Shown piece by piece: positions 40,101 to 46,807 of a stretch of 64,000 bases of DNA; position 1 is the stretch's first letter; each line of letters opens with the position of its first letter. The stretch covers positions 1 through 64,000 of the forward strand of contig JAFEBQ010000010.1 of NCBI GenBank assembly GCA_018242585.1, read 5' to 3'. Source of the stretch: Planctomycetota bacterium (lineage in GTDB: Bacteria > Planctomycetota > Planctomycetia > Pirellulales > PNKZ01). The translations under genes and the position numbers were made by a program. The notes beneath the pieces were generated by a model that did no database searches, was not told where the DNA came from, and saw only the letters and a program-made list of their open reading frames with translations.

Positions 40101-40699
40101 AGCGTCTGCTCGCGCGCGATCGGGATGATTTGCGAATAGATCGTCGAAATCTTGACCGACAGACACTCGACCTCGGGCGACTGCAGGGCCTGCAGGTATT
40201 TGTTCAAGCGTTGCTGAGCCTCTTCCTCACCCAGCAGCGACTCACCCAGGAAGTTCAGGTTCATCCGCACCCCTTGGGCACGCCGCGCGGCCAGGTGCTC
40301 GTGCAGCAACTCAGGCTCGGCCGGCAGCACCACGTTGGCCGTCTCGTGCTGTAGGTGGGCTTTGACCAAGGGAACCGTGACCGTCGGCAGCCAGTCGCCA
40401 AAGGTCTGAAAGCCGCGCAGCAATGCCTGATCGAGCGGGCTGAAGAACCGCGGAATCCCCTGCACGTCGAGAATGTGGGTGAACTGCTCGGCGGTGCGGG
40501 CCGCGACGTGCGAGCGAAACGACTGATCCGTCAACTGGACCAGCGTGGCCTTGTCGTGCGGGTTGCGGAGCATGCGGTCGAGCTCGGCCTGCTGCCGGCG
40601 CTCGGGCGGCGACTGCAACGCGACGGCGCGATCTTGCAACTCGGCGGCCAGCCGGACGGCGGCATCAATCAGGCGTGCATCGGCAGCGGCGGTCTTCAT
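37109..40699 (-). CDS. putA: Bifunctional proline dehydrogenase / delta-1-pyrroline-5-carboxylate dehydrogenase (PutA)
   Basis: The start at 40699 (MKTAAADARL) gives 1196 aa; an upstream extension to 41029 overlaps the divergent gene and is Arg/Pro/Ser-rich, so it is rejected. A FAD-binding proline dehydrogenase barrel spans about residues 100-440 (NFLGESLLGEEEA, LSVKISTIYSQI, RIVKGANMEMERVDAA, GIASHNLFDVAYG). An aldehyde dehydrogenase domain spans about 540-1010 (PPWNFPIAIPCGG, SAETGGKN and HGGQKCSATS with catalytic Cys near residue 785). A C-terminal domain follows. No ribbon-helix-helix DNA-binding segment is present, so it is an enzyme only. It oxidises proline to glutamate, feeding electrons to quinone. 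Confidence 0.95.
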   Translation of the reverse strand: MKTAAADARLIDAAVRLAAELQDRAVALQSPPERRQQAELDRMLRNPHDKATLVQLTDQSFRSHVAARTAEQFTHILDVQGIPRFFSPLDQALLRGFQTFGDWLPTVTVPLVKAHLQHETANVVLPAEPELLHEHLAARRAQGVRMNLNFLGESLLGEEEAQQRLNKYLQALQSPEVECLSVKISTIYSQIIPIAREQTLRVLCDRLELLYREAAHVQYTRPDGHLTPKFIYLDMEEYRDLSLTAEAFMRTLGRPGLDQVSGGIALQAYVPDSFTVQQRITAWARERVARGGAPVTIRIVKGANMEMERVDAALHDWPQAPFASKVETDANYKQMLQFALVPDHLHAVRVGIASHNLFDVAYGLVLVGERLAENLVQFEMLEGMANHQRRALLERTSQLLLYAPACRKEEFLNAIGYLIRRLDENTGPENFLGHAFRLKVGSDDWRMLEQGFRQAFQTAIDHRPRRQQDRNTEQFPTPRVEMPLQLFENEADTDWSLPANGAWAESIVARDVKALAAHTIPVVIDGGEITDRAKKPCQDPSRGGATLCHYAQATDADVDLAVQCAQADADGWRTMTVDARNEVLGRAAQELRRARADLLWAALTNGGKILTEGDPEVSEAIDFVEFYRASARMFYELPTIRARAAGVVVVVPPWNFPIAIPCGGVAAALAAGNTVILKPASDTVLVAWELCQCFWRAGVSRRALQFVPCPGGGPGSRLVSHRDVAAVILTGGTETALRMLAKKPDLHLSAETGGKNVTIVSALSDRELAIKHIVHSAFSHGGQKCSATSLLILDAEVYDDVNFKRMLCDAVESLQVGSAYDLASRMGPLIRPPSGVLEEGLKTLEPGESWAVMPRPSPSNPYLWTPGVKYGVTPGSVTHRIEFFGPVLGVMRYERLADAIDWVNATGYGLTSGLHTLDDREMAQWRAAIQAGNLYINRGTTGAIVLRQPFGGMGLSAVGPGLKAGGPNYVASFMHFSDRDAQLGDLDIDNDDLADLAEHLKSDRDDDARLLQALASYDHWWRTEFSREHDHFRLLGQDNVRRYLPFGQACVRITPADTWFDIVARVAAARVTGARVLACFAPGCPTVWRETLDEWTESWAAGIELFEEPDTTVIAHMYQRHWPRIRFARREHVPAAVRQVAAHEGQWIADAPVLAEGRIELLWYLREQSISYDYHRYGNLGDRANELRRELVRPAE

Positions 40700-40883
40700 G
40701 GCGAGCGACCTGGGGCCAGCGGTGGTCGAAGCAGTTGAATTGTTGGACGCTGGCCGGAATGAATCAACACCATTCGCGGTTGGCGGCGCGGCGAATGCAG
40801 CCGGCGGGGCGTTTCCGCCACGGCGTCGGGACATTATCCTGGGACGCGTCGCTGGCTCCTTAACCAAAAACGAACGAGTCACC

Positions 40884-42245
40884 ATGAAATGCGCACCATC
40901 AATGTCACGGATGGCCGCTGCCCAACTTTCCCGTTCGGTGGGCTTGGATCGTCGCACCATGCTGGGCGCATCACTGGCCGCCGGGGCGACGATGTTGCTT
41001 CCGCGCGCCGGCTGGGCCGCCGACGCCACAAGTGAAGCGATTCAACGAGCGCACGACGAAATCTGGCAGCGCTTCGTCGATCGCCACGGCATCCTGGTCG
41101 ACTTTGCCGATCTCGACGGCCGGGTCGAGTTGCCCACGCCTGAGGAATGCCGGGCTGGCAAGCCGAACGCGCTGGGCTGGTTTCAACCGATCGAAAATGG
41201 CGCGATGTTCAACGGCATGTATATCGACGCCCTGCTCTGCCAATGGGAACAAACACGCTCGCCCGAAGCGGCCGCCAAGGCTCGACGCTTGATGCAAGGG
41301 CTGCTGCTATTGGCGTCGATCAGCAACGTGCGCGGGCTCGTCGGCCGGGGCGTCTCGGCCGACGGGCGGTCGCACTACCCGATGGGTTCCAATGACCAAA
41401 CGTCCCCCTGGTTCTTTGGGCTGTATCGATTTCTATCGTCCGGCCTGGCCACCGCTGAAGAACACCGGCAGATCATCGCCAAGCTGGTCGAAGTGGCCGA
41501 CGCGATCTACGAGTTGGGCTGGAAGATGCCGGCCGAAGCGCCGTTCAACATCCGAGGCTCGTTCGCGGGAATATACTTCGACGCCGCGGCGCGGCTGTTG
41601 TTCGTCGCCAAGCTGATGCACCACTTTACGGGCGACAAGGCGTGGGCCGACCGCTACGCGCAAGCCCTCGACGAGCGCGGTGGCGAAGCGAACGCCAGCC
41701 GGCGGGAACTGATGCGCGGCGGCATGAAGTTCTACTACGCCAAGACGCACCACTGGACATCCTGCGCGGCGGTCTGTTGTCTGCGCGGCCTATGGGAGTT
41801 GGAGACGGACGCCACGTTGAAGCAAGCGTACGCCGAAGGCCTGCGGGCCAGCGCGAATCTCGCCGCCGAAAGCTTGCCGCTGGCCGAGAAATACAACGCC
41901 GCGGACCCGAGCACCTTCAGCCAGGATTGGCGCTCGGCGATGATGCCCCTGTGGAAGCCGCAACAGACCGAGCAAGAGTCCCAAGCATTGGCCGAGGCCC
42001 AACTGCGGGCGTTCATGAAGGTCTCCCCGCGACGCAATCTGGAGACTGCCGCGATTCGCGAGCCGACTGCGGCGGCCTGGATTGTGACGCTGTGCCCTGA
42101 CGCCCAGGTGGTGCGCCAGCATGCCGCCACCATCAAGCAGATGGCCACGCGATATGACTATGCCCGGCTGTATTACTGCACGTTCTTTTGGATCGAGGGG
42201 GCGGTGTGGCGGCTGCGGGCATTGCCGCCAGGCGGAACGAAATAG
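40884..42245 (+). CDS. Tat-exported alpha-helical protein, possible glycoside-hydrolase-like fold
   Basis: The ATG at 40884 yields 453 aa with a twin-arginine signal (LDRRTMLGASLAAGATMLLP ending RAGWAADA). The mature protein is mostly helical with repeated helix-turn patterns, many Trp and Tyr, and conserved-looking loops such as ENGAMFNGMYIDALLCQW, SADGRSHYPMGSNDQTSPWF and FNIRGSFAGIYFD. This layout recalls (alpha/alpha)6-barrel glycoside hydrolases or unsaturated glucuronyl hydrolases, but no catalytic assignment is possible. It is divergent from putA, with 184 bases between them, and upstream of the channel-like gene on the same strand. Confidence 0.8.
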   Translation: MKCAPSMSRMAAAQLSRSVGLDRRTMLGASLAAGATMLLPRAGWAADATSEAIQRAHDEIWQRFVDRHGILVDFADLDGRVELPTPEECRAGKPNALGWFQPIENGAMFNGMYIDALLCQWEQTRSPEAAAKARRLMQGLLLLASISNVRGLVGRGVSADGRSHYPMGSNDQTSPWFFGLYRFLSSGLATAEEHRQIIAKLVEVADAIYELGWKMPAEAPFNIRGSFAGIYFDAAARLLFVAKLMHHFTGDKAWADRYAQALDERGGEANASRRELMRGGMKFYYAKTHHWTSCAAVCCLRGLWELETDATLKQAYAEGLRASANLAAESLPLAEKYNAADPSTFSQDWRSAMMPLWKPQQTEQESQALAEAQLRAFMKVSPRRNLETAAIREPTAAAWIVTLCPDAQVVRQHAATIKQMATRYDYARLYYCTFFWIEGAVWRLRALPPGGTK

Positions 42246-42362: not shown

Positions 42363-43364
42363 ATGGTTCACATGTATCGCTCGCGATTGATGATGATTGG
42401 CTGCTGGCTGGCCTGGGGCATCTTGATCGGCGTCGCCGGCGCTCAGGCCCCGTCAAAGACACCCGCGCCGACCGCTGGCCCGCCGACCGCCAAGCAAGTG
42501 ATCGTCGGCATGTACTTGAACCAGGTCGACAGCGTCAGCCTGAAGGACAGCCAGATCGTCGTCGACTTTCATATCTGGTTCCGGTGGAAGGATGCCGACC
42601 TAAAACCGATCGAGACGTTCGACGTGGTCAACGGCAAGATTGAGTTGAAGGAAGACATCGTCACCAAGGACGACGTCAACGGCTATCGCTACGCCTGCTG
42701 TCGGGTGCTGGCCACGATTCACAAGCTGTGGGACGTGTCGCGGTTTCCGCTCGACGAGCACGAGCTGCTGATCGAAATCGAGGACGGCGACTTCGAGGAA
42801 GACAAGGTCCGCTACATCGCCGACGTCGAGAACAGCGATCTGAACCCCGACGTGGAAGTGGCCGGCTGGAATGTTGGCGAGTGCCCCGTCTCGGTCATCA
42901 CCCACCGCTACAACACAAACTTTGGCGACACGACGCTCGAGACCGGGCACGGCTCGAACTATTCGCGATTCCGTTTTCCAGTGCTCCTGTCGCGACCGAG
43001 CTACGGCATGTTCTTCAAGCTGCTGACCGGCATGTTCATCGCCTCGGCCATCGGGCTGCACGCGCTGTTGATCAAGCCCAGCGAGCTGGACGCGCGGTTC
43101 GCGTTGACCGTGGGGGCGATGTTCGCCGCCGTGGCCAGCGAATACGTGGTGGTCTCGTCGCTGCCCGAGGCCAATTACCTGACGCTGGCCGACAAGCTGC
43201 ATATCCTGACGTTCACGTTCATCTTCGCATCGATGGCCGTCTCGGTCGTTTCCTACAAGCTGGCCGAAACCCGCCGGTTGCACCTGTGCCGCTTGATCGA
43301 CAGCGCGGCGTTCATCACGCTGGGCGCGGCTTACATCGTTACGGCGTACAAGCTGGTGGTGTGA
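42363..43364 (+). CDS. Pentameric ligand-gated ion channel (Cys-loop receptor)-like protein
   Basis: The protein is 333 aa from 42363; ATG 42372 is equally possible. A signal peptide ([20 protein letters not shown]) precedes a beta-rich ligand-binding-like domain with [20 protein letters not shown], the W-x-D element FRWKDADL and the hallmark [15 protein letters not shown] (FPxD-x-Q/H). Four helices follow: [20 protein letters not shown], then a pore-like M2 ([20 protein letters not shown] then SSLP), [20 protein letters not shown] and [19 protein letters not shown]. The order and the M2-M3 Pro loop fit prokaryotic pLGIC relatives. The two Cys of a true Cys-loop are not conserved. Ligand and ion selectivity are unknown. 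Confidence 0.82.
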
Positions 43365-43516
43365 GCCGGGGCGGCCGGGCCGCACTTGGCTGCGATTTTG
43401 CACTAAACCACGCGAGACTCGCCGCTTTTTTGGCGTCAGATCCACCCGACTGTTGCTTCTTTGTCGCCCGGGCTTCATCTACAATGGCACCCATCCTTGC
43501 AAGGGGAATGGGCAGC

Positions 43517-46500
43517 ATGGGCATCGATCTCGATTCGTTCGTCAAGCAATTGTCCAGCGCTGGCATTCTGCCAGCCGACAAGCTCGAACGATTTGTGCCG
43601 CCCCAGGCCCACCCCAAGACGGCCGAGGAGCTGGCCCAGGAACTGGTCAAGAGCAGCGAGCTGACGAAGTTCCAGGCGACCCAAGTCCTGGCCGGTCGGG
43701 CCAAGGCGCTGCTGCTGGGCAACTACACGTTGCTCGACAAGATCGGCGCCGGCGGCATGGGCCAAGTCTTCAAGGCCCAGCATCGCCGCATGAAGCGACT
43801 GGTGGCGATCAAGATGCTGCCGCCCGCCCTAGTGAAAGACGCCGCCGCCCTGGCGCGCTTTCAACGCGAGGTCGAAGCGGCCGCGCGCCTGGCCCACACC
43901 AACATCGTGGCCGCCTTCGACGCCGACGAAGCCAACGGCACGCACTTCTTGGTCATGGAATACGTCGAGGGAAAAGACCTCTCGGCCACCGTCAAAGAGC
44001 GGGGGCCATTGCCGGTGGACGAGGCGATGAACTATATCCTACAAGGCGCGCGCGGGCTGGCCTATGCGCACGCCGAAGGAGTCGTCCACCGTGACATCAA
44101 GCCGGCTAACTTGCTGGTCGACAAGAAAGGCGTGGTCAAGATTCTCGACATGGGGCTGGCCCGGTTCGAAGACGCGAACGCGGCCGACCATCAATTGACC
44201 AACACCGGCGCGGTGATGGGAACGGTCGACTACATGGCACCCGAGCAGGCCGCCGACACCCGGCGGGCCGACGCGCGCAGCGATATTTACAGCCTGGGCT
44301 GCTCGCTGTTTCGCTTGCTGACGGGGGGCAACGTCTTTGAAGGGGAAACGGTCGTCAAAAAGATTCTGGCCCACATGCACGACCCGATCCCTTCGCTGTC
44401 GGATCGACGAACCGACGTGCCGGCCGAGGTCGACCAGATCTTTCAGCGGATGATGGCTAAGCGTCCCGAGGATCGGTACCAGACCGCGGCCGAACTGGTC
44501 GCGGCGATCGAGGCTTGGCGGGGCGGAACTTCACAGGCCTCGGTTACCTCGGGCTCGCAAGGTGGCGCGCAGCTCAGCAACTTCTTCAACAATCTGACGC
44601 TGCCAAGCGAACCGGGTTCGTCGCCATCGGCCGCGTCGAAGCCGAGCACCAGCGCTACCGTGCCAGCCGACAGCGCCACGGCGGCGTTTGGCATTCAGCA
44701 TCTGAAGAATCTGCCGACCGGGAGCACCATTTCGGCGTCGCGGGCCGAGTTGGATACCGATCCGAAGAGCGAGCGATTCTTGCCGAGCTTGAAATCGGCC
44801 GTCAAGAATGGCGGCGCGGCTGGCGGCGCCGTGCCGCCGTGGAAGAGTCCCCTGGCCCTGGCCGGTGCGGGAAGTGCGGGCTTTTTGCTGGTGGCGTTGG
44901 GAGCCTGGTGGTTTGTATTCCGCGATTCATCCGGCAAGGAATTGGCGCGGAGCGAAGCCAAGCCCGCCCAGAAGGTGCAGACCGCTCCGGGCACGACGGT
45001 CGAAGTCGTGAAAGATGGGCAGCCAGCTACGGTCGTACTGGGCGGGGGCAAGAAGATCACCACCTACGACACGCCCGAGTTCAAGCGCTGGCTCGCAAGC
45101 ATCGCGTTCCTCTCGGTTGAGAAACAGATCGACGCCGTCAGCAAAAAGTTGCAAGGGCTGAATCCAGGGCACGATGGCAAGCTTTACGGGTACGAATGCA
45201 AGGGAACGCCCAAGATCGAAGGGGGCAAGGTGACCGAGGTGGGCCTACAGCCAGCCAACCTGGTCGATCTTTCTCCGCTGCGCGCTTTCAAAGAACTGTG
45301 GGCGTTGTCGTGCAACGGCGCGGGTCCGCTGGCCGATTTGTCTCCGCTGCGCGGCCTGAAGCTGGGGCGATTGAACTGCAACGGCGTTAATAACATCACC
45401 GATTTGACGTCTCTGACGGGCATGCCTCTCACCTACATTCACCTGTACAACACCCAGGTTGCCGATCTGAACCCGCTGCGCGGAATGCGGCTTGTGAGCT
45501 TGTACCTGCAGCACACCCGGGTGACCGATTTGTCGCCGCTGGTGGGAATGCCCCTGCAGTACCTGGAATGCCACACAACGCCGATCAGCGACGTAACGCC
45601 GTTGGCCAGCATCGCATCGCTGAAGAGAATCACGCTATACGGCACCAAGATCACCGAAGCCGACGTGGCGACGCTACAGAAGGCCGTGCCCAATTGCCAG
45701 ATCGAATGGCCGAGCCAAGGCCGACTCTACGTGCCAGGCGAGTCGACGCCCGCGCCGCCGCCCGATGCGGCCAATGCCGTGTTCTTGGACGACCTGAAGC
45801 CGACCAAGACGGCGAACTTGCATCTTCAGTTGGGGACTCGCGGGCGCACCAACAGCAACAAAGCTTTCACCTGGCGCGGAGGTCAACCGCAACATTCATT
45901 GTTCGCCCATCCCAACGGCGCGGGGCCCACGACGGTGTCGTACGCAGTGGATGGCAAATACGAACGGTTCCGCGCGACCGTCTGCCTGGTGACAGATCTG
46001 CAAGACAAGCAAGCGTCGGTGTCGTTTCGAGTGCTCGGCGATGATCGCCCGCTCTGGCAATCGGGCGCCTACAGCACCACCGACCGATCGGAAGACTTTG
46101 ACCTCGACGTGCGCGGCATCAAGCAATTGACGCTCGAGATCACGACACGCGGCGGCATCGGCGCCATGCACCCCGTCTGGCTCGACCCGCGGCTGATTAA
46201 AGCGAGCGCGGCCGCTGCGCCAGCGCTCGCCGGCGACGGTTGGCGGTCGTTGTTCGATGGCCAAGACCGGCAGGCCCATTGGACCGCCAAGGGGGGCGGC
46301 GCGTGGAGCGTCACCGACGGCGCGCTAGTCGGCAAGACCGACAGCCCTGGCTGGCTGATGTCCCGAGAAGAATTCGACCACTTCGAGTTCGCTTGCGAGT
46401 ACAAGCTGTCACCGGAAGGAAACAGCGGTATCTTTCTGCGAGCCCACGCCGACGGTCCCGTCAGCGGCAGCGATTTCCTTGAAGTCCAACTGCTCGACAA

Positions 46501-46807
46501 TGCCGCGCCCAAGTTCGCCGCGCTCAATCCCAAGCAAAAGAATGTCGCGCTGTACAATCAGTTGGCGCCGCGGACTTCCCCCCCTGCCCCGGCCGAGCAG
46601 TGGAATCAGATCCAGGTTCAATGCTATGGCGCGCACGTTCGCGTCACGTTGAACGGCACGCTGGCGCTTGACGGCGAGATGACGTCGAAGCTCCGCGAGC
46701 GCGGCCACATCGGCCTGCAACTTTATCCCAAGCAAGTCGAGTTCCGCAACCTGCGCGTGCGGCCGCTGAGCAGCGACGGCACGCCGAGTTCCCCAATCAA
46801 CCGCTGA
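43517..46807 (+). CDS. Transmembrane Ser/Thr kinase with LRR-like, NPCBM and DUF1080 ectodomains (kinase 1)
   Basis: The ATG at 43517, ten bases after AAGGGGA, aligns with the starts of kinases 3 and 4 ([12 protein letters not shown] with MAITAKEFLESL); the protein is 1096 aa. Residues 1-68 are a helical module ending [21 protein letters not shown]. The kinase (about 70-335) has [26 protein letters not shown] instead of DFG, and APEQ. A low-complexity linker leads to a single helix at about 443-468. Outside the cell follow leucine-rich repeats (about 584-731; [28 protein letters not shown]), an NPCBM-like beta-sandwich (about 752-895) and a DUF1080 domain (about 907-1090; [19 protein letters not shown]). 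It likely couples extracellular, perhaps carbohydrate, binding to phosphorylation. Confidence 0.9.

Follow-up and report, generated by a model that had tools for sequence, protein, structure and literature searches.

A predicted pLGIC subunit of a planctomycete falls in a bacterial clade with altered M1 and M2 residues

Within the window, i.e., the whole 64,000-nucleotide stretch of planctomycete DNA that was analyzed, a frame of 333 residues that translates without an internal stop encodes a putative subunit of a Cys-loop-receptor-like channel (pLGIC). The features of this gene and of its two neighbors are as follows.

40545-42245, plus strand: upstream exported-looking protein with a Tat-like start
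42363..43364, plus strand: pLGIC subunit gene, 333 amino acids plus stop, with an alternative ATG start at 42372
42363..42449, plus strand: likely signal peptide (residues 1-29), with a hydrophobic core and A-Q-A before P30
42477..42992, plus strand: ligand-binding-type β-sandwich (residues about 39-210), presumably periplasmic, from the model and structure matches
42576..42587, plus strand: loop-D motif W72-F-R74-W75; W72 is found in 56/56 alignment rows, a conservation partly built in by a search pattern
42744..42761, plus strand: Pro loop FPLDEH (residues 128-133), without flanking Cys
42909..42929, plus strand: loop-C-region motif Y183-x-T-N-F-G188-D189; G188 is found in 56/56 alignment rows
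43002..43070, plus strand: M1 helix (residues 214-236), with Gly223 at M1 14', a Pro in most pLGICs
43086..43157, plus strand: M2 pore helix (residues 242-265)
43185..43268, plus strand: M3 helix (residues 275-302), from the model
43278..43358, plus strand: M4 helix (residues 306-332), from the model, after a very short loop from M3
43508-46807, plus strand: downstream kinase gene, with Pfam matches to Pkinase, LRR, NPCBM and 3-keto-disaccharide hydrolase

The channel gene shows a coding pattern, with a GC content of 0.874 at codon position 3 vs 0.387 at position 2. Since its overall GC content (0.609) is close to that of the window (0.615), its composition gives no sign of recent import. A promoter and terminator scan returned one sigma-70-like match, which lies inside the gene, and no terminator. 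The signal peptide cleavage site was judged by eye, and this region has low pLDDT in the AlphaFold2 model.

As for the identity of the gene product, sequence, profile and single-chain fold matches to pLGICs agree, which bears out the first-pass annotation that had proposed a Cys-loop-receptor-like channel. When the single sequence was searched against PDB sequences with phmmer, the best match was ELIC (1.4e-6), with GLIC at about 1e-4, while a 10-sequence profile matched a GLIC-GlyR chimaera (7.4e-23) and GLIC (9.8e-21), both over the whole length. The AlphaFold2 single-chain model, built from 56 natural sequences, has a mean pLDDT of 90.3 and a pTM of 0.80. It consists of a strand-rich domain followed by four helices, which were examined beside the hydropathy of the protein, with strands and helices in the pLGIC order. 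Foldseek placed a GLIC chain on top (5.4e-22), and the 50 matches listed are all GLIC, GLIC chimaeras or rho1 GABA-A. VIA-align paired the model with GLIC at a Z of 24.2 (277 residues, rmsd 2.4), with GABA-A β3 chains at 24.4 and with GluCl at 24.2, the 50 matches listed spanning Z 23.6-24.4 over 276-283 residues. The pLGIC β-sandwich, whose presence had been left to fold prediction at first pass, is thus found in the single chain, with GLIC, GABA-A and GluCl all at a Z of about 24. Among family models, Pfam PF02931 (Neur_chan_LBD) scores 18.7 bits for the window channel, below its gathering score of 26 bits, and matches 24/56 alignment rows at an E of 0.001 or better; NCBIfam NF033918 (LGIC_1) scores 40 bits (E 2.9e-10), below its curated cut-off of 500 bits, and matches 50/56 rows at the same threshold. 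Judged by sequence and model, the window gene is a genuine bacterial relative of animal neurotransmitter-receptor channels.

The motifs named in the first-pass annotation are where it had read them, with the W-x-D element as W75-K-D77, the FPLDEH hallmark as F128-H133 and a pore-like M2 among four helices (214-236, 242-265, 275-302 and 306-332 in the model). Its statement that the Cys pair is missing holds too. The Cys-loop disulfide pair of animal-type receptors is absent: the only Cys residues are 14, 112, 113, 174 and 309, and residues 122 and 136, which by spacing we take to be the positions of the two Cys-loop cysteines, are both Leu. The sandwich does contain vicinal cysteines, C112-C113 (window 42696-42701), away from the Cys-loop positions; 4/56 alignment rows have Cys at 113. 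Bacterial pLGICs as such were already known (Tasneem 2004, PMC549065; Jaiteh 2016, PMC4795631), and the first of these sources describes the Cys pair as absent in bacterial members and the M3-M4 link as very short in other prokaryotic pLGICs too.

Residues conserved over 561 pLGICs, as listed by Jaiteh 2016 (PMC4795631), provide a yardstick for the window channel. According to that source, the Pro of the [F/Y]PxD loop is the sole absolutely conserved residue; it is P129 in FPLD here and is kept in 56/56 alignment rows. The pre-M1 Arg and the M2-M3 Pro, given there as present in 94% and 88% of pLGICs, are both found (R211 and P268), as is the β9 aromatic (W169). In M2, the window channel has D243 at -2', R245 at 0', A247 at 2', G251 at 6', F254 at 9', A258 at 13' and Y261 at 16'. 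It thus has the basic 0' residue of 79% of pLGICs, while its 9' Phe is the alternative listed for 13%, where 75% have Leu (PMC4795631). The departure lies in M1, where R211 is numbered 26', so that 14' is residue 223: the Pro expected at this site is absent, replaced by Gly223. This Pro is given as present in 77% of pLGICs by one source (PMC4795631), the site is listed as P, G or S by another (Tasneem 2004, PMC549065), and a third states that the M1 proline is present in all pLGICs (PMC4813548). The M1 14' Pro is a common feature of pLGICs, not a defining one.

Of the characterized channels, the proton-gated GLIC of Gloeobacter resembles the window channel in its whole fold, its Pro loop, pre-M1 Arg and M2-M3 Pro, its lack of a Cys loop, its acidic -2' (by alignment) and its 13' Ala, at 18-20% identity in structure alignments. 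From GLIC to the window channel, however, as read from the profile alignment, the M1 Pro is replaced by Gly223, 2' Thr by Ala, 6' Ser by Gly, 9' Ile by Phe and 0' Asn by Arg. The amine-gated ELIC of Erwinia, which gives the best single-sequence PDB matches, shares the aromatic 16', Ala 13' and Arg 0' when positions are counted from the M2-M3 Pro, but by the same counting it has Leu 9', Gln 2' and Thr 6', and it keeps the M1 Pro. DeCLIC, likewise a prokaryotic pLGIC, is set apart by its description, which includes an N-terminal domain (PMC12664993); the window channel has no extra N-terminal domain of this type.

Single-sequence and profile searches found one channel copy in the window's own genome and none in the six other genomes of the same family, one of which is 75% complete; by single sequence, the own genome is thus the 1/7 family genomes with a match. 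At higher ranks, the single sequence matched 22/392 genomes of the phylum, and a profile of the 56-row alignment matched 39/196 genomes of the order and 41/297 of the class, all subfamilies counted. From these counts, pLGIC-type genes are sparsely distributed across the class. When genome contigs were scanned with the single channel protein as query, no match was returned, while an alignment-based scan yielded 124 confirmed relatives, the best 80 of which were analyzed further. The 80 loci were retrieved with two search patterns, one for residues D68-W75 and one for K238-F246, which partly build in the conservation at W72, R74, -2' and 0'; neither pattern covers M1 14', M2 6' or 9' or the loop C motif. 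The 56 alignment rows were chosen by hand from the loci, many near-copies and broken frames being left out.

The relatives belong to Planctomycetota, Pseudomonadota, Myxococcota, Acidobacteriota, Verrucomicrobiota and other phyla, and in a plasmid collection Azospirillum replicons carry relatives at about 39% identity. By tblastn, relatives from Azospirillum, Burkholderiales, Myxococcota, Acidobacteriota, Verrucomicrobiota, WOR-3 and planctomycetes are 29-50% identical to the window channel, and they mostly share its M1/M2 pattern and loop motifs. In contrast to the window channel, some have an apparent extra N-terminal helix (by eye), and some adjoin type VI secretion genes, which the window gene does not. 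The extra stretch is seen by eye in many rows of one subclade (L079, L084, L088-L090, L092, L096-L102, L104-L107, L110 and L111), where a hydrophobic segment replaces the plain signal peptide and is followed in most rows by an RHxxR-like segment before the sandwich; it is possibly a fifth, anchoring helix.

In a quick, midpoint-rooted tree of 89 rows, which includes several long-branch rows (L004 among them), a branch with an SH-aLRT support of 95 sets apart 68 rows, the window channel among them. Residues were counted in 100 of 104 aligned rows, i.e., 79 inside this clade, 11 of them near-copies absent from the tree, and 21 outside; L010, L091, L103 and L109 were set aside as broken or shortened frames or as a near-copy. 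With the inside counts inflated by Azospirillum near-copies, the M1 14' Pro is found in 2/79 rows inside vs 21/21 outside, the M2 9' Phe in 76/79 vs 1/21 and the M2 6' Gly in 75/79 vs 3/21, while Ala occupies 13' in 71/79 inside rows. At 2' and 4', two sites that are Gly in most clade members, the window channel carries Ala and Thr, respectively. The residues kept inside the clade are P129 (79/79), D131 (77/79), R211 (75/79) and P268 (74/79). The loop C region commonly reads Y-x-x-N-x-G-D inside the clade, with Y183 in 74, N186 in 62, G188 in 79 and D189 in 72 of the 79 rows, vs 18/21 for Y183, 12/21 for G188 and 6/21 for D189 outside. Loop D, which lies within a search pattern, is conserved as an aromatic or His at 70, W72 and R74. 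Together, the conserved residues of loops C and D suggest a shared type of ligand across the clade; the environmental molecule raised as ligand at first pass is a guess.

The two inside rows that have the M1 Pro are L099, the first clade branch as drawn, and the long-branch L004, and a single loss of this Pro in the clade would fit their placement. With the M1 Pro lost, 2' and 6' occupied by small residues and 9' by Phe, the clade must, on this sequence pattern, have an M1 kink and a gate that are not the same in detail as in GLIC or ELIC. The absence of the M1 Pro as such is already in print (PMC4795631, PMC549065). Open-licence papers gave us neither a report of this clade or a characterized member, nor a description of the M1 change linked with 6' and 9' as the mark of one clade. 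What stands out in the alignment is one clade with a concerted change in residues tied to gating. With its natural replacement of both the M1 Pro and the 9' Leu, this clade lends itself to testing how widely the gating scheme of GLIC and nAChR applies. Phyla are intermixed in the tree, where the Planctomycetota label takes six changes, three of them forced by starred branches, with 30 rows unlabelled. For the window gene, which stands beside the same-phylum row L006 with a support of 87, we make no claim of horizontal transfer.

Taken as a whole, we consider it likely that the gene encodes the subunit of a homopentameric pLGIC that is gated from the periplasm and probably conducts cations. The pentamer would sit in the cytoplasmic membrane of the planctomycete, and we infer that it is a homomer because one channel copy was found in the genome. 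A signal peptide would export the N-terminal β-sandwich to the periplasm, where a small ligand or ion would bind between subunits, with loops A-C contributed by one and loops D-F by the adjacent one. The resulting movement would pass from the Pro loop (F128-P129-x-D131) to the pre-M1 R211, to P268 of the M2-M3 loop and to the M2 helices. These helices would open a pore that is most likely narrowest at F254 (9') and Y261 (16'), below which the 2' and 6' rings would be almost without side chains. Ions, most likely cations, would then flow, and the altered membrane potential or ion content would be the signal. Our leaning toward cations, which is slight and a guess, comes from D243, which aligns with the Glu before M2 of GLIC and would form an acidic ring at -2'. 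However, A-[RK] before M2 is described as an anion-channel pattern (Tasneem 2004, PMC549065), which A244-R245 just before M2 of the window channel fits, so this guess could be wrong. As stated by Jaiteh 2016 (PMC4795631), no biological role was known in 2016 for any pLGIC of unicellular organisms.

A protein that keeps the pLGIC fold and senses a ligand without conducting ions, e.g., one that acts by protein contact, is an improbable alternative, although the best of those we considered. It draws on the unusual Gly-rich M2 and on the loss of the M1 kink Pro in 77/79 clade rows, since substitution of Pro203 in GLIC (numbering of PMC4813548) by Ala, Leu or Gly (P203A, P203L, P203G) is described there as leaving no response; by the same reasoning, the window channel may gate differently or not conduct. 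The listing of P, G or S at this site by Tasneem 2004 counts against that worry. Moreover, the strong conservation across phyla of M2 sites that are free of the search patterns (6', 9' and 13') would hardly be expected in the absence of a pore, the coupling residues P129, D131, R211 and P268 are kept, and the very short M3-M4 loop leaves little for signaling.

Type VI secretion genes lie within the fetched flanks of 21/80 loci, while the other 59, some of whose flanks are cut by contig ends, have no such match. In 12 Azospirillum loci and one of Roseomonas genomospecies 6 (L046-L049, L051-L055, L057, L059, L062 and L063), genes for TssM, TssA, Hcp and a UPF0114 protein lie upstream on the same strand (13/13), the Azospirillum order being TssM-TssA-Hcp-UPF0114-channel; L002 is an extra case beyond the 21/80. 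Arenibaculum L060 has two Hcp-like genes in the channel flanks, and in the Pirellulales contig L036 a VgrG/gpD-like gene adjoins the channel. Six Burkholderiales loci (L068-L070, L073, L074 and L077) have a sheath protein and a kinase in 6/6, with TssM or TagF or both in each. Pfam support in the examples scanned comes from IcmF, ImpA, Hcp, VipB, TagF and Phage_GPD. A link between pLGICs and type VI secretion was not found reported in open-licence papers, and the repeated neighbor in Azospirillum and Burkholderiales, which are culturable, offers a starting point for testing function by knock-out. VipB matches occur in 7/7 clade-member genomes examined, whether channel-linked or not. For the window gene, by contrast, a type VI link is not supported, its own genome having 0 VipB matches (VipB alone was searched).

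A broader reading of the clade, which we find possible but doubtful, combines a single loss of the M1 kink, a gate rebuilt on Phe 9' with small (mostly Gly) residues at 2', 4' and 6', an altered opening motion of M1 and M2 and a pore that is wide in its cytoplasmic half with a recruitment into type VI clusters of Azospirillaceae and Burkholderiales as a periplasmic sensor or regulator. With no VipB match in the window's genome, its recruitment half is inapplicable there. As a separate observation, the genomes of L068, L069, L071, L078 and L083 contain a normal VipB gene and a second, strongly divergent VipB-like frame, which in L068 and L069 is the gene near the channel; L069:4089-5888 has matches to both VipA and VipB, as a sheath-protein fusion would.

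The immediate neighbors of the window gene were also considered. The frame upstream, which ends at 42245, is exported-looking, in line with the first-pass description; its Pfam match to TAT_signal (E 0.023) is below cut-off, no Pfam family scores above cut-off, and relatives are found in 3/6 same-family genomes. Downstream, the first-pass annotation had placed a sensor kinase, which Pfam corrects to a kinase gene of Ser/Thr type rather than of the two-component sensor type. Functional coupling to this kinase, whereby the channel signal would enter a phosphorylation pathway, seems very improbable to us. The kinase gene starts only 143 bases downstream on the same strand, and kinase matches are found in the flanks of 11/80 related loci and of L022 outside those 80. 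However, 8 of these 11 loci are Burkholderiales, 6 of them also with type VI matches, and Pkinase matches in the window's genome number 40, including a few that are fragments of a single gene. Furthermore, 0/13 regions around planctomycete relatives have a kinase match (several are on contigs shared with the 80-locus set and some are cut by contig ends), although a kinase match is present in the flanks of two other planctomycete loci, L022 and L094. Given the 0/13 and the 40 matches, the kinase is not supported as a partner; the linkage carries little weight, and the neighborhood says little about function. As for a false positive through compositional resemblance of membrane helices, to which the Pfam scores under curated cut-offs and a weak match to DUF998 (E 0.012) might point, it is ruled out for practical purposes by the full-length profile match (1e-20), the confident full-length fold and motifs in the sandwich as well as in the helices.

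Finally, several relatives show arrangements of their own. Channel genes lie side by side in L061 (99-1106 and 1277-2161) and L087 (2031-3161 and 3272-4150), the first member of each pair being recognized by eye, and a third pair, L019 and L029 (G311:C111), was found by search; such adjoining genes could give rise to heteromeric pentamers. The record of L112 is labelled as a Klebsiella pneumoniae MAG, while its protein groups with planctomycete rows of the window's phylum (support 99), and the bin name is probably wrong. Two channels in genome G090, which belong to another subfamily, carry a periplasmic binding domain of NMT1_3 type (TAXI-like) fused in front, at L017:1495-3402 (minus strand) and L027:478-2415 (plus strand), with Pfam values of 6e-47 and 4e-55; where Tasneem 2004 (PMC549065) treats such arrangements, it reports PBP-I fusions and PBP-II neighbors, not an NMT1_3 fusion. 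The partial L032 of the same genome looks by eye like these fusion channels.
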